This document shows, one piece after another, positions 1,155-17,671 of a DNA stretch of 49,721 nucleotides. Below the pieces are notes generated by a model. The model did not search any database. It was not told the origin of the DNA and worked only from the letters and a program-made list of their open reading frames with translations. A program made the position numbers and the translations under genes. Origin of the DNA: Eubacteriales bacterium (lineage in GTDB: Bacteria; Bacillota; Clostridia; Oscillospirales; Oscillospiraceae); the NCBI GenBank assembly GCA_030531505.1, contig JAUNNH010000012.1, forward strand, positions 19,322-69,042, in the 5' to 3' direction. How positions within the stretch are numbered: position 1 is the first letter of the stretch; each line of letters starts with the position of its first letter.

Positions 1155-2181
1155 GCTCGCTGCCCTCCTTCCCGCTGTCCTCAAGCGTGATGCTGCCATC
1201 CTCCAGACCGGCCTTCACGTTCATCCAGCAGGCGGCCATATGGTCCTCGTTGATGCGCATACGCTCGCAGCGGCTGCGCAGGCAGATTTTCATCGCGTTG
1301 TCGCAGCGCGGAGCAAAGGGGCAGCCCTCGGGCATGTTCAGCAGGTCGATGGGCGTGCCGCTGATCGGCTGCAGCCGGGTGCCGGCCGTATCCGCCGTGG
1401 GGATGGAGCGCATCAGGCCCTTCGTGTATTCATGGCGGGGATTGTAGAAGATCTCGTCGGCCGTGCCCTGCTCGCAGATCGAGCCGGCATACATGACGAT
1501 GACCTCGTCGCACATCTGCGCCACAACGCCCAGGTCGTGGGTGATCATGATGATGGCCATGCCCAGCTCTTCCTGCAGCGACTTCATCAGCTCCAGGATC
1601 TGGGCCTGGATGGTCACGTCCAGCGCCGTGGTGGGCTCGTCCGCGATCAGGATATCCGGCTCGCAGGCGAGGGCCATGGCGATCATAACACGCTGACGCA
1701 TACCGCCGGAATGCTCAAAGGGGTACTGCTTCATGCGCTTTTCCGGATCGTTGACGTTCACGAGACGCAGCATTTCCACGGCACGGTCCCAGGCCTCGCG
1801 CCGGTTGCGGTCGGTATGGAGGGTGATGGCCTCCACGAGCTGGTGGCCGATCGTATAGGTGGGATTGAGAGAGGTCATGGGGTCCTGGAAGATGATGGAC
1901 ACCTTGTTCCCACGGACGTTTTTCATGACCTTTTCGCCCGCGCCGACCAGCTCCTGCCCGTCGAGCTGGATGGAGCCGGAGACGATCTTGCCGGTGTTGG
2001 CGAGGATCTGCATGATGGAATAGGCGGTGACGGATTTGCCCGATCCGCTCTCACCCACGATGCCGAGGACCTTGCCGCGCTCGAGGTTGAAGGAGATGCC
2101 GTTCACGGCACGCACCTCGCCGGCGGGAGTAAAGAAAGAGGTGTGAAGGTCGCGGACCTTCAGCAGGGGAGTATCAGACAT
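1147..2181 (-). CDS. oppD: Oligopeptide/dipeptide ABC transporter ATP-binding protein (OppD/DppD type)
   Basis: Second ATPase of the peptide importer, 344 residues. It shows Walker A GESGSGKS, a Q-loop [10 protein letters not shown], the signature [15 protein letters not shown] and Walker [13 protein letters not shown], then the C-terminal oligopeptide domain with [15 protein letters not shown] and further cysteines that in this family can hold an Fe-S cluster. The ATG at 2181 follows AAAGGAGAG; the 13 codons upstream in frame have no such site. It lies 16 bases downstream of oppC and overlaps oppF by 8 bases, within one five-gene operon. Confidence 0.93.
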
Positions 2182-14517: not shown

Positions 14518-15444
14518 TCAGAAGTTGCCCCAGTTCTCGTAGTTTGAACCCGCGTTGCCGTCAGAGACGCCGGTGGTCAGCGTGTAGATGTAGCCGCTCT
14601 TGAATTTGTACGAGTCCGCGCCGCCGTCGAAGGTCCAGGTCACATACCAGCCGTCCTCGCCGAAGGCGTCCTTTCGGCCGTACCAGTCGTGGCCATTGCC
14701 CTGCTTGATGGTGTAGCGCCCGGCTTTCAGGCTCGTCTGCGCGCTGCCGTTGCCGCCGATGAAGAGCACGGCGACCAGCTTGTCGTCGGAATTGTAGATC
14801 TTGAAGCAGGTCGCTTCATCCGAATCGGCGTTCTTGACCTTGAACTTGACCGTAACGCCGGAGCCGATCGAAGAGCTCTTCCAGACACGGCCGTCCTTCG
14901 GCCAGTCCTTCACGCAGGAATCGGCACGGTCGGCCCAGTCGGCCCACTGGCTCGCCTCGTAGCTCTGCTTGGCGAGATAGTAGTGGCCGCTGCTCGCCTG
15001 ATAGCGGGCCAGGCAGTACAGGTACTCGGCCTCGGGCATGCCCGCGGCGATGACCGCATCCTCGGCCTTCTCGCCCTCCTGATACACGTACAGCGCGCAG
15101 AGGAGCTCGGCAAAGATCTCAGCGTCGACATAGTCGGTCTGCTCCATGCCGTAGCGCTTCTGGACCTTGTTGAGGACTTTGAAGGTGCCGCTGCCGGCCT
15201 TGCCGTCGGTGGAGACGTCCTCCCCGAAGGCCTTCAGCACGCGCTGCAGGGCTTTGGCGTTGTCGCCGCTCGCGCCCTTCTCGAGGATCTCACCCTCCAG
15301 GAGCGCGGCGTAGCAGGATTTGTAGGAGTTTTTGTCGAGCGCATCCAGCACCGCGCTCATATCGGTCTCGTCGTAATACGCGCTCGCGAAGGCGCAGGGG
15401 AGCAGAACAGCCAGGATCAGCAGGAATGAAATCAGTTTTTTCAT
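14518..15444 (-). CDS. Secreted peptidoglycan-binding-like domain protein
   Basis: A 308-residue exported protein with a clear signal peptide (MKKLISFLLILAVLLPCAFA). Residues about 50-100 form a PG_binding_1-like three-helix motif: EKGASGDNAKALQRVLKAFG, then a Gly-containing turn and GTFKVLNKVQKRYG. A helical region (about 105-175) has TPR-like character, and the end is a beta-rich domain with several Trp, Tyr and Gly that I do not recognise. The ATG follows AAGGAGGC. It likely works at the cell wall; no catalytic domain is seen. Confidence 0.75.
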   Translation of the reverse strand: MKKLISFLLILAVLLPCAFASAYYDETDMSAVLDALDKNSYKSCYAALLEGEILEKGASGDNAKALQRVLKAFGEDVSTDGKAGSGTFKVLNKVQKRYGMEQTDYVDAEIFAELLCALYVYQEGEKAEDAVIAAGMPEAEYLYCLARYQASSGHYYLAKQSYEASQWADWADRADSCVKDWPKDGRVWKSSSIGSGVTVKFKVKNADSDEATCFKIYNSDDKLVAVLFIGGNGSAQTSLKAGRYTIKQGNGHDWYGRKDAFGEDGWYVTWTFDGGADSYKFKSGYIYTLTTGVSDGNAGSNYENWGNF

Positions 15445-15610
15445 GGTGATGCCTCCTTATTCTAAACATGCTCTCTTTTCCAGGGTACGGGAAGATTTCG
15501 ATTCCGGTAAGTTCAGTATATACCAAATGCTGGGAAAGGGAAAGCCTTTTTTAAAAAAGTGTGCGGAGACGTCCGCTGCCGGCAGATGCCAAAGAATCCC
15601 GCGGCATGCC

Positions 15611-15639
15611 TTGTTTTTTGAATCGCGCGGTCTTATAAT
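15611..15639 (+). promoter_or_regulatory. Promoter at the left edge of the hairpin array
   Basis: TTGTTT and a perfect TATAAT are separated by 17 bases. Transcription would begin around 15646, a few bases before the first hairpin, so the whole array would be transcribed rightwards, possibly on into the lipoprotein gene. Confidence 0.5.
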
Positions 15640-15875
15640 GACTATATGATAGCGAAAAGCCAAAAAGCTTTTCGCCGCGCGGCTTTGCCGCGCAGCCAAA
15701 CAGCTTAGCTGTTTGGCCATGTATTCATTTCAATGAGCATCGGGCGAATGACCCTTTGGGTCATTCGCTGCCAAACTTGTCGTTTGGCAGCGAGAACGAT
15801 CGAATTTGCGATCGTTCTCGCCATCCTATAATCATTATAATGATTATAGGATGGCAAAACAGCAGGGCTGTTTCG
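15633..15875. repeat. Mosaic array of eight contiguous perfect hairpins
   Basis: The 515-base gap at 15445-15958 has no credible gene; its right half is this array. Perfect stems are H1 15652-15675 (9 bp), H2 15677-15693 (7 bp, loop TTT), H3 15695-15717 (10 bp, loop TTA), H4 15744-15768 (11 bp, loop TTT), H5 15769-15789 (8 bp), H6 15790-15821 (13 bp), H7 15820-15855 (a 36-base perfect palindrome) and H8 15857-15873 (7 bp). Most touch with 0-2 bases between them. H3, H5 and H8 share CCAAAC/AAACAGC-type arms. The 21 bases at 15633-15653 recur with three changes at 15835-15855, giving the array direct-repeat-like edges. It resembles mosaic intergenic palindrome elements (BIME-like in form), not a known named family. 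Confidence 0.8.
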
Positions 15876-15958
15876 TCCTGTACTCATGGCAAGGATCTGA
15901 TAGATAACAAAGGAAAACAGAAAACGACCACTGCAATTTGTTACGGGAGTGATTCAAC

Positions 15959-17671
15959 ATGAAACGCGCTTTTTCCGTCCGGCTTTTCCGTGTGCTCGCC
16001 CTGCTGCTGTGCGCGGTGATGATGCTCACGCTGCTCAGCGGCTGCGCCATCTCGGGGCGGGAACTTGCCGCCGCGGCGCTGGGGCCTGCCGGCATCTCCG
16101 TCGTCGTCGGCGCGGCACCGATCGCGCCGTCCCAGCCGGTGACCATGCCATCCCCGCTGCTGAACACCGCCCAGCAGATCCAGCTGCTCGAACGCTGCCG
16201 CACGCAGTGGGCCTTCGGCAGCACGGAGGCTGTGAGCTGGTCCTATGCCTATACCGATCTCAACCGCAACGGACGGCTCGAAGTGCTCGCCGCCGCCACC
16301 CAGGGCACGAGCTCCTTCACTACCGTCAAGTGCTTTGAGGTCTCCCCGAACTTCAGCGGCGTCACGGAGTGTTACAGCCCGAGCCAGACCGAAGGCTGGC
16401 CGGAGATCACCGTCGCCGCGCTGCCCTGCTTCTCCGACAGCCGCACCGGCGCCTGCTATTACGTCTGCGAGGATCTCACGAAGCTGAGCGCGGCGGAATA
16501 CAGCTACGCCCAGCGCGTATTCTGGCTTTTTGACGGCGTGCTGCAGATGAACACACTCGCCACCAAGTCTGTCACCTACAGTGCGAACGGGCAGGTGGGC
16601 ACGGTCTGCCGCGACTGGGCGGGCAACCCCATCAGCGAGGCCGATTACGCCGCCTATCCCGACCGCTACTATGCCTCGCTCGCCAAGTCCACCCTCTCCC
16701 TCAGCTGGCAGCAGGGGGGCAATTACCCGGCTGTGGCCCCAATGTCCACGCCGATCCCCACGCCGATGCCGACACCCGTTCCCACCCCCGCCGGACCGGT
16801 GGGCCCCACGGTGGTCATCACCAAGAATCCGACCAGCGAATCCCTTGCGATCGGCGGGACGACCTGGTTCATCGCCCACGCGAACAACGCGTCCTCCGTC
16901 ACCTGGCAGGCCGTGAGCCCCGACGGGCGTATCTATTCCGCGGCCGAGGCACTCTCGCTCCATCCGGGCCTTGCGCTGAGCGGCGTCAACAACGACACCC
17001 TCGCGCTGCGCAACGTCCCCCTCTCCCTCAACGGCTGGGGCTTCCAGGCCCGCTTTGACGGCCAGGGCAACGCCGCCGTCAGCACCGCCGCCTATATCTA
17101 CGTCGGCGATTTCGTCACGGCCTACCAGAGCGTGCTGAACGCCTACCGCGCGGCCTATCAGGTCGGCGGACACACGGCGCAGTACGCGCGGCAGAACGGC
17201 CTGTCCGAGCTCATCGCACACAGCCCGCATGTCGGCTACGCCTTCAAGGATCTCAACAAGGACGGCACGCCCGAGCTCTTTATCGGCGGCGTGAATCCGG
17301 ACGCCTTTGCGCGTCTGATCGTCTACGACTGCTACGCGCTTGTCAACGGCGTCCCCGTGCGCCTCGCGGTCTCCTCGGAGAACGACCGCTTCTACCTGCG
17401 CACCGACAGCAGCCTCCTCAACGGCGGCGAGGACGGCAAAGGAAACGAACACTACTTTATCTTCCGCTTCTCGAACAACAGTCTCAACGCCGTCGAAGGC
17501 TATATGAAGTACCGGGCCGGCAGCCCGGAGGACGGCTACTATTACCAGCAGGGCGCGTATTCCGCCGTGCCGCGCCCGGGCGACCGGAAGGTCGAGGAGA
17601 GCGTGATGGGCAACAAGGTACATGAGTATGAAAACGCTGCCTTCGCGCTGCTGATGACGCAGATCGCCTGA
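15959..17671 (+). CDS. Lipoprotein with two calcium-loop-like motifs
   Basis: A 570-residue lipoprotein with a signal peptide ending in the lipobox LSGC (Cys29). It has two halves joined by a Pro/Thr linker (residues about 260-280, STPIPTPMPTPVPTPAGP). Each half carries an aspartate-rich loop, DLNRNGRLE near 100 and DLNKDGTPE near 430. These are like the EF-hand-type loops of VCBS/dockerin-like repeats and probably bind calcium. An Ig-like segment follows the linker (TVVITKNPTSESLAIGG). The ATG follows GGGAGTGA. No enzyme motif is recognised. It lies 27 bases ahead of the MoxR-type ATPase gene and may share its transcript. Confidence 0.75.
   Translation: MKRAFSVRLFRVLALLLCAVMMLTLLSGCAISGRELAAAALGPAGISVVVGAAPIAPSQPVTMPSPLLNTAQQIQLLERCRTQWAFGSTEAVSWSYAYTDLNRNGRLEVLAAATQGTSSFTTVKCFEVSPNFSGVTECYSPSQTEGWPEITVAALPCFSDSRTGACYYVCEDLTKLSAAEYSYAQRVFWLFDGVLQMNTLATKSVTYSANGQVGTVCRDWAGNPISEADYAAYPDRYYASLAKSTLSLSWQQGGNYPAVAPMSTPIPTPMPTPVPTPAGPVGPTVVITKNPTSESLAIGGTTWFIAHANNASSVTWQAVSPDGRIYSAAEALSLHPGLALSGVNNDTLALRNVPLSLNGWGFQARFDGQGNAAVSTAAYIYVGDFVTAYQSVLNAYRAAYQVGGHTAQYARQNGLSELIAHSPHVGYAFKDLNKDGTPELFIGGVNPDAFARLIVYDCYALVNGVPVRLAVSSENDRFYLRTDSSLLNGGEDGKGNEHYFIFRFSNNSLNAVEGYMKYRAGSPEDGYYYQQGAYSAVPRPGDRKVEESVMGNKVHEYENAAFALLMTQIA

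Follow-up and report, generated by a model that had tools for sequence, protein, structure and literature searches.

The window analysed here is a stretch of 49,721 nucleotides from a GC-rich draft genome (G000; 2.24 Mb in 42 contigs, 74% complete), and one of its intergenic gaps is filled with closely packed hairpins. Upstream of the hairpins lies a divergent gene (14518-15444, minus strand) encoding a peptidoglycan-binding domain (PF01471), whose promoter presumably falls within the same gap. The sole listed ORF of at least 80 aa that overlaps the hairpin element (15457-15720, minus strand) lies mostly in host flank. The features of the gap and of the gene that follows it are these:

15611..15616 (+): TTGTTT, a -35-like hexamer in the host flank, 17 bp from the element's terminal TATAAT, which is the spacing peak over 100 copies
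15634..15839 (+): full-length hairpin element, 206 bp (nhmmer model 1-206, with the outer T and A counted in)
15634..15639 (+): TATAAT -10 box, composed of host T, AT and the element's AAT
15635..15636 (no strand): putative AT target duplication (2 bp), left copy, judged from another copy's empty site and from end conservation
15637-15836: strict core of the element, AATGA...TCATT
15637..15651 (+): outer inverted repeat of unit A, pairing with about 15718-15730
15652..15675 (+): hairpin 1, 9-bp stem
15677..15693 (+): hairpin 2, 7-bp stem
15695..15717 (+): hairpin 3, 10-bp stem
15724..15741 (+): inner junction TTCATT-TC-AATGAGCATC (end of unit A, 2-bp spacer, start of unit B)
15744..15768 (+): hairpin 4, 11-bp stem
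15769..15789 (+): hairpin 5, 8-bp stem
15790..15821 (+): hairpin 6, 13-bp stem
15822..15836 (-): outer inverted repeat of unit B
15837..15838 (no strand): putative AT target duplication (2 bp), right copy, judged from the same two kinds of evidence
15820..15855 (no strand): perfect 36-bp palindrome formed where the right end of the element meets an older copy's left end
15836..15895 (+; end approximate): older truncated copy, its left end joined to the hairpin 3 region and hairpins 1-2 missing (model 1-24 and 62-103)
15856-15873: last (eighth) hairpin, hairpin 3 of the older copy
15959..17671 (+): downstream gene, 570 aa, with a signal/lipobox-like N terminus (by eye) and only a sub-threshold FG-GAP match

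The original prediction placed eight inverted repeats in this gap and every one of them is found there; the predicted RNA fold of 15633-15875 has an energy of -132.7 kcal/mol, compared with -65.8 +/- 4.3 in 200 shuffles (z -15.5). It also assigned nearly every base to a perfect stem. The eight stems are real, but 15718-15743 lies outside any local hairpin and contains instead the two inner inverted-repeat ends of the element. Nor are the eight hairpins a single unit: six make up one element copy, the seventh is a junction and the eighth is hairpin 3 of the older copy, so that the latter half of the long stem originally drawn falls outside the 15634-15839 repeat unit. An arm sequence common to several stems, AAACAGC, does recur as described, and it does so because the eighth hairpin is hairpin 3 of the older truncated copy (of which the model 62-103 piece scores E 1.1e-5, the 1-24 piece being weak alone at E 0.073). 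The TATAAT said to precede the block is present at 15634-15639 with TTGTTT, a TTG-type -35, 17 bp upstream, and on this promoter anatomy transcription of the block is plausible. At 206 bp, the element could specify at most 68 codons; it is of the size and non-coding character of MITEs (below about 600 bp).

Copies, ends and target duplication

Other genomic copies, which the original prediction proposed to look for, are plentiful. A search of G000 with the 15633-15875 block returned 14 that are full-length, and 102 distinct full-length copies were collected in all (104 hits, with two duplicates dropped). In the 13 other copies in G000 the match stops between query positions 206 and 211 and only the window copy extends to 243; the repeat unit is therefore 15634-15839. 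Identity to the window copy is 96-100% for eight of the 14, itself counted, and 83-84% for the other six; below these come partial matches, two of some length (135 and 69 bp) and many short ones at the level of single hairpins. Identical 204-bp cores make up two sets of four in G000 (L002-L005; L009, L011, L013 and one copy in L007). The flanks of these identical cores are unrelated, which implies recent movement in this genome. Copy number and the two sets thus give the element the multicopy character and recent mobility of MITEs.

The element was found in 47 of 149 genomes searched (G000 included), all of the window's genus; five candidates were scored per genome, making copy numbers from this survey lower bounds, and a few of the matches are weak. 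A survey at the level of the family gave a match in 18 of 400 genomes and 9 of 106 genera (one of them, G165, weak), and at the level of the order three of 394 genomes matched, namely G000, G165 (again weakly) and, over 40 bp, one from another family. An exact 25-bp pattern identified 69 stretches in named records, whose titles give Ruminococcaceae, Oscillospiraceae, Clostridiales or Clostridia; the hosts, where the titles of these records give one, are sheep, goat, roe deer and water buffalo. The bearers are thus gut bacteria, often of ruminant origin. All of the genomes are drafts, mostly MAGs. The window copy has no match in 72,556 plasmid and 50,697 phage records, and there are no exact hits in viral contigs to one end pattern of the element; spread by phage, plasmid or virus was rejected on that account. 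Two full copies and a contig-end copy lie inside 2 kb at G000:C13:1-2000. Since copies also stop at contig ends in G062, G063, G243 and G000:C30, repeats of the element may break assemblies.

Conservation of the ends, like the pre-insertion sites considered below, was counted over 100 of the 102 copies (L116, which is orthologous to L115, and one copy with a short flank were dropped). The ends read (T)ATAATGA...TCATTAT(A), with A/T of the AT conserved at 97/94% on the left and 98/98% on the right, and the outer T/A at only 71% (left) and 65% (right). Allowing at most three mismatches, the end pattern has 35 matches in G000 and none for the reversed control, as expected of terminal inverted repeats; these matches form 15 pairs of element length or shorter and five single ends, all interpreted as copies that are decayed, in tandem or cut by a contig end. 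Only one clean empty site defines the 2-bp duplication of the AT target: at the orthologous locus G034:C95 (77% identity over 231 columns) the flanks meet at a single AT where the copy has two, and the net insertion is thus AATGA...TCATT plus one AT. A candidate second empty site (G013:C118, 68% alike) is ambiguous, and consistent with AT duplication.

The hairpin block is read here as a non-autonomous, MITE-like mobile element that is mobilised in trans and often inserted at -10 boxes; on the sequence evidence, the probability that this is correct is put at roughly 0.8. A non-autonomous mobile element had been among the original suggestions and it is borne out by the many copies, their unrelated flanks, the sharp inverted-repeat ends, the target duplication with its empty site, and the identical copies. 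Comparison of copies establishes an element that is sharp-ended and multicopy, that has an AT duplication at one clean site and that has spread very recently in G000.

Insertion at promoter -10 boxes

TTG is found exactly 17 bp 5' of the terminal TATAAT at 13 left and 12 right ends, out of 100 each. Other spacings (8-41 bp) yield 0-5 per 100 ends, except for 20 bp (8 and 6), a peak that is expected from insertion at the second AT of TATAAT. Reconstruction of the pre-insertion sites with one AT restored generates a perfect in-register TATAAT in 32/100 and a match of at least 5/6 in 63/100, as against 1.7% and 10.2%, respectively, of 3,319 control AT dinucleotides, which lie no more than 500 bp from a copy and include genic and intergenic sites alike. 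In the combined count over these 100 sites TTG peaks also at 14 and 20, since two registers 3 bp apart are taken together. Without the six copies that have end-like flanks (some of these may be chance), 27 of 94 sites are perfect and 57 of 94 match at 5/6 or better. A TTG-17-TATAAT-like arrangement is found at 26 of these 94 sites and at 64 of the 3,319 controls (odds ratio 19, p 5e-21). By these counts, insertion is strongly enriched at the AT of promoter -10 boxes.

A plain preference for the TATA palindrome, or for TATAAT, may explain part or much of that enrichment. In the fetched flanks outside elements, TTG stands at 17 bp from 5.3% of TATA, 25.6% of TATAAT (n=86) and 1.8% of any AT; the enrichment at element ends is thus only about 2.4-fold over TATA sites, and TATAAT sites are richer in TTG than the ends are. 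The insertion-site consensus is the near-palindrome ATTATAAT.

TATAAT is rebuilt at its original spacing because host T plus AT joins the element's AAT. The clearest case is that of a HypB-like gene (CobW/HypB/UreG domain) in G000, with the element within its -10 box: the promoter reads TTGCTT-17-TATAAT, and the distance from -10 to ATG is 263 bp with the insert and 57 without its 206 bp. Among 13 relatives of this gene the start was located in 12, and none of these 12 loci holds the element; nine have TTG-17-TANNNT upstream, at distances of 32-198 bp (7/9 at 32-81). More generally, a start codon with a Shine-Dalgarno sequence lies at most 200 bp past the far end of the element for 30 of 43 promoter-bearing ends and for 78 of 159 others (p 0.017; gene starts were called with an approximate Shine-Dalgarno and start filter). 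On the promoter's own side such a start is found for 21/43 (p 0.08 against the 30/43 past the far end), and the gene-start test as a whole is weak.

Hairpin stems as RNA, as DNA or as products of mutation

The six hairpins comprise 58 pairs. In an alignment of 87 of the 102 copies (those at least 97% alike dropped), 98.1% of cells are paired and copies do not lose complementarity without compensation: 28 of the 58 pairs have changed on both sides, the mean in shuffles being 10.0 (0/500 reach 28). In slid controls the paired cells fall to 27-49% and both-side changes to 7-15, and RNAalifold predicts 56 pairs, 26 of them with both-side changes. The hairpins are arranged as two units. The left outer end of unit A (hairpins 1-3) pairs with ...CATATATTCATT, and in unit B (hairpins 4-6) AATGAGCATCGG... 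pairs with the right outer end; the spacer between them is 2 bp (GC in 73/87 copies). In the stems that close the two units pairing amounts to 87.8% (85.9% in shuffles, 21-53% when slid), with a regular mismatch at the sixth pair of either stem, and 10 of the 24 pairs have changed on both sides (shuffle mean 4.8, slid 4-11). Because one slid version (+1) reaches 11, this covariation carries less weight than the covariation of the hairpins. Minimum-energy folding, for which shuffles keep base composition only, yields two cloverleafs for L344 and for the g138 copy L341; in the g127 copy L333 the six hairpins are kept and the two closing stems are not.

L343 and L344, two copies of another genus (G393), are 221-222 bp long with 68-69% identity. 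Hairpins 4 and 5 have wholly different sequences in them and the others are partly changed, but the number and order of the hairpins and the closing repeats are kept; these two are perhaps a second subfamily with its own copies. Their hairpin 4 is 19-20 bp. Elsewhere there are solo A units (L187, L307), single-hairpin forms (L265, L266, L190) and copies without one or more hairpins. The mobile element is the one of the original suggestions that fits, and the loss of hairpin modules in many copies makes it mosaic as well. Tandem units with a common AT junction (in the window and in G065) and end-like flanks in L006 suggest that the six-hairpin element goes back to an old tandem of two units with three hairpins each. 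In L186 (about 1690-1865; G021:C9) hairpin 4 of an element copy is interrupted by roughly 180 inserted bp, the short inverted ends of which read TAAACG/CGTTTA (by eye).

The strong covariation of the stems, and the location of copies often between promoter and start codon (30/43 promoter-bearing ends), would also suit a structured regulatory RNA, a leader or small RNA with stems selected in one strand's transcript to regulate the downstream gene, the copies being the device of a regulon. This must be considered unlikely. Selection on RNA is expected to favour G-U, yet mispairs on the plus strand are G-T in 58 cases and A-C in 52 (p 0.63), or 42 and 47 when the two loop-closing pairs are left out (other mismatches, 43). 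Promoters enter left and right ends about equally (13 versus 12 per 100), hairpins are lost as modules in many copies, and the element has no Rfam match at gathering score. The multi-hairpin small RNA of the original prediction is weakened by the Rfam result, the two-way promoters and the equal mispairs. Since selection on one strand's RNA would favour G-U, the mispairs seem to point to a fold that is important in either strand, as DNA, or else to one kept by mutation.

The last of these is a possibility that deserves some weight, although we do not favour it. Template switching between arms would keep palindromes perfect, so that the covariation would be mutational and the stems without function; template switching is reported to be able both to create stems and to preserve them (PMC8794818). 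Loops do occur in both orientations (for example, hairpin 4, CAAAG 10 and CTTTG 13; hairpin 5, CTGTC 16 and GACAG 1; hairpin 6, AATCCT 23 and AGGATT 1), as fits template switching, and covariation is for that reason not proof of RNA function. However, these are raw counts, and such very short loops could also invert by point mutation. Moreover, hairpins 4 and 5 of the G393 copies differ in sequence while the number, order and closing repeats stay, and template switching accounts for the maintenance of stems rather than for the retention of six of them. It is compatible with the mobile-element explanation.

A role of the hairpin cluster as transcription terminator or insulator is very improbable. 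Hairpin clusters are reported to induce intrinsic termination (PMC8355165), but many copies, in either orientation, lie directly 3' of a -10 box and 5' of a start codon, and a terminator in that position would shut off the host gene. The original prediction had itself dismissed a terminator series, a CRISPR and an integron site; all three were rejected here as well, the supporting anatomy being absent.

Known relatives, the mobilising enzyme and a possible mode of spread

Bacterial MITEs (Correia, ERIC, RUP and others) are reviewed in PMC10969869. As described in sections of that review, they share with the present element its shortness, multicopy and intergenic distribution, inverted-repeat ends, target duplication, stable secondary structure and frequent location 5' of genes. 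MITEs are one foldback or an IS remnant, whereas the body of this element is six separate perfect hairpins in two closed units, and Correia elements carry their own promoters, whereas the end of the hairpin element restores a host -10 box. Those sections make no mention of insertion into -10 boxes, and titles and abstract openings in the open-licence literature yielded no description of the element or of a bacterial MITE inserting into -10 boxes. A hairpin-forming mobile body is also a property of the double-hairpin or repetitive hairpin-forming elements of mitochondria, and of a mobile DNA family of yeast mitochondria (PMC2800124, PMC4478555). These elements are organellar, unlike the bacterial one. 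They have fewer hairpins and, to our knowledge, no promoter targeting.

REP, BIME and REPIN sequences with their RAYT enzymes (PMC3733652; PMC3116915) resemble the element in being intergenic palindromes that form hairpins and are presumably mobile in trans. They differ from it in that its consensus is without GTAG/CGTC, its inverted-repeat ends come with an AT duplication and its body is two three-hairpin units, not a REP doublet. That the element is a member of this type, and that a Y1 (HUH) tyrosine transposase moves it by way of its hairpins in single-stranded DNA, is unlikely. It is hairpin-rich and intergenic, Y1 transposases occur in 56 of 102 genomes of the genus, and tyrosine transposases flanked by GTAG repeats or by unrelated TIRs are on record (passages of PMC3733652). 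However, GTAG/CGTC is absent on both strands from the majority consensus and from the window copy (22 of 102 copies hold one somewhere), and two element-bearing genomes, G000 (74% complete) and G044 (95%), have no PF01797 match. None of 52 Y1 loci read is flanked by the element, L299 having a partial copy 2.2 kb away. A 2-bp duplication at a symmetric target is not the pattern known for IS200/IS605.

Transposition of the IS30 type offers the best mechanistic analogy, as a likeness of behaviour and not as membership: passages of PMC9333248 describe how IS30 duplicates 2 bp of its target, prefers hot spots that are nearly palindromic and has a second specificity, for its own ends, from which tandem copies result. 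No IS30-type gene with element ends is present among 10 PF00665 loci read, and three of the 11 element-bearing genomes yielded no rve-domain gene.

End-pattern and Pfam-family searches of these incomplete draft genomes found no transposase bearing element ends. The end pattern applied to 102 genomes of the genus gave seven matches, of which two are full-length copies already collected; the other five, with about 260 bp read after each, are element variants or no element. This pattern leaves out ends that have the element's own next base, and would miss a parent with identical sub-terminal letters. In five element-rich genomes, 20 stretches read among the matches listed contained no parent. The transposase families considered were Y1 (56/102 genomes), DDE_3 (17/102), DDE_Tnp_1 (6/11 element-bearing) and rve (PF00665; 8/11 element-bearing); none of the four occurs in all 11 element-bearing genomes, and none of 80 of their loci read has element ends as flanks. 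Single end-like matches with at most four mismatches are common around 20 RAYT-like genes; at no more than three mismatches only L297 (one) and L299 (two, its partial element) remain.

A mode of spread can be proposed for the MITE-like element favoured here. A transposase acting in trans would recognise the AATGA ends, perhaps together with folded hairpins in single-stranded or cruciform DNA, and cut near-palindromic ATTATAAT targets with a 2-bp stagger. Such cutting would favour -10 boxes as well as the element's own ends, generating tandem units, and the two-unit element would itself be an old tandem insertion. Joining of T, AT and AATGA recreates TATAAT and keeps the original spacing from the host -35. 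The host gene would keep its promoter and gain a hairpin leader of about 200 nt, and the retained promoter would limit the damage and allow the element to persist. The perfection of the stems could be due to selection for mobility, to template switching between arms, or to the two together.

A more far-reaching version is advanced only tentatively: a new kind of bacterial mobile element composed of two tandem four-way-junction (cloverleaf) DNA units, the enzyme reading their folded shape rather than their sequence, with site-specific insertion into -10 boxes (perhaps in the melted open complex) that the element's own ends rebuild. Were this the case, the element would spread through promoters, become the leader of host genes and spare their expression.

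Promoters are usually harmful places for insertion. The hairpin element seems to hit the -10 box and to repair it in doing so, and this would account for a genome's tolerance of a dozen or more copies, many of them beside genes. Provided that the leaders are transcribed, many unrelated genes have acquired one and the same long structured 5' leader. With more than 100 copies, module losses, solo units and a strongly diverged relative, the element also provides a natural series suited to asking whether it is selection on folded DNA or template switching that preserves perfect palindromes.

The RAYT-like genes provide a separate observation. In this genus most of their Y1 transposase frames (L281-L300) contain a REPIN, two GTAGGG-headed palindromes in inverted orientation, within the coding part itself. 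Passages of PMC3733652 describe REPs that lie within genes or next to RAYT genes and do not mention two of them in the RAYT frame. The internal REPIN is present in 16 of 20 frames (18-of-26 rule, scores 21-26); one further frame scores 17 and three have none. In L284, for example (frame 1312-1833, plus strand), the repeats lie at +117 and +284 of the frame. The repeat differs from gene to gene, and its two arms match within each gene.
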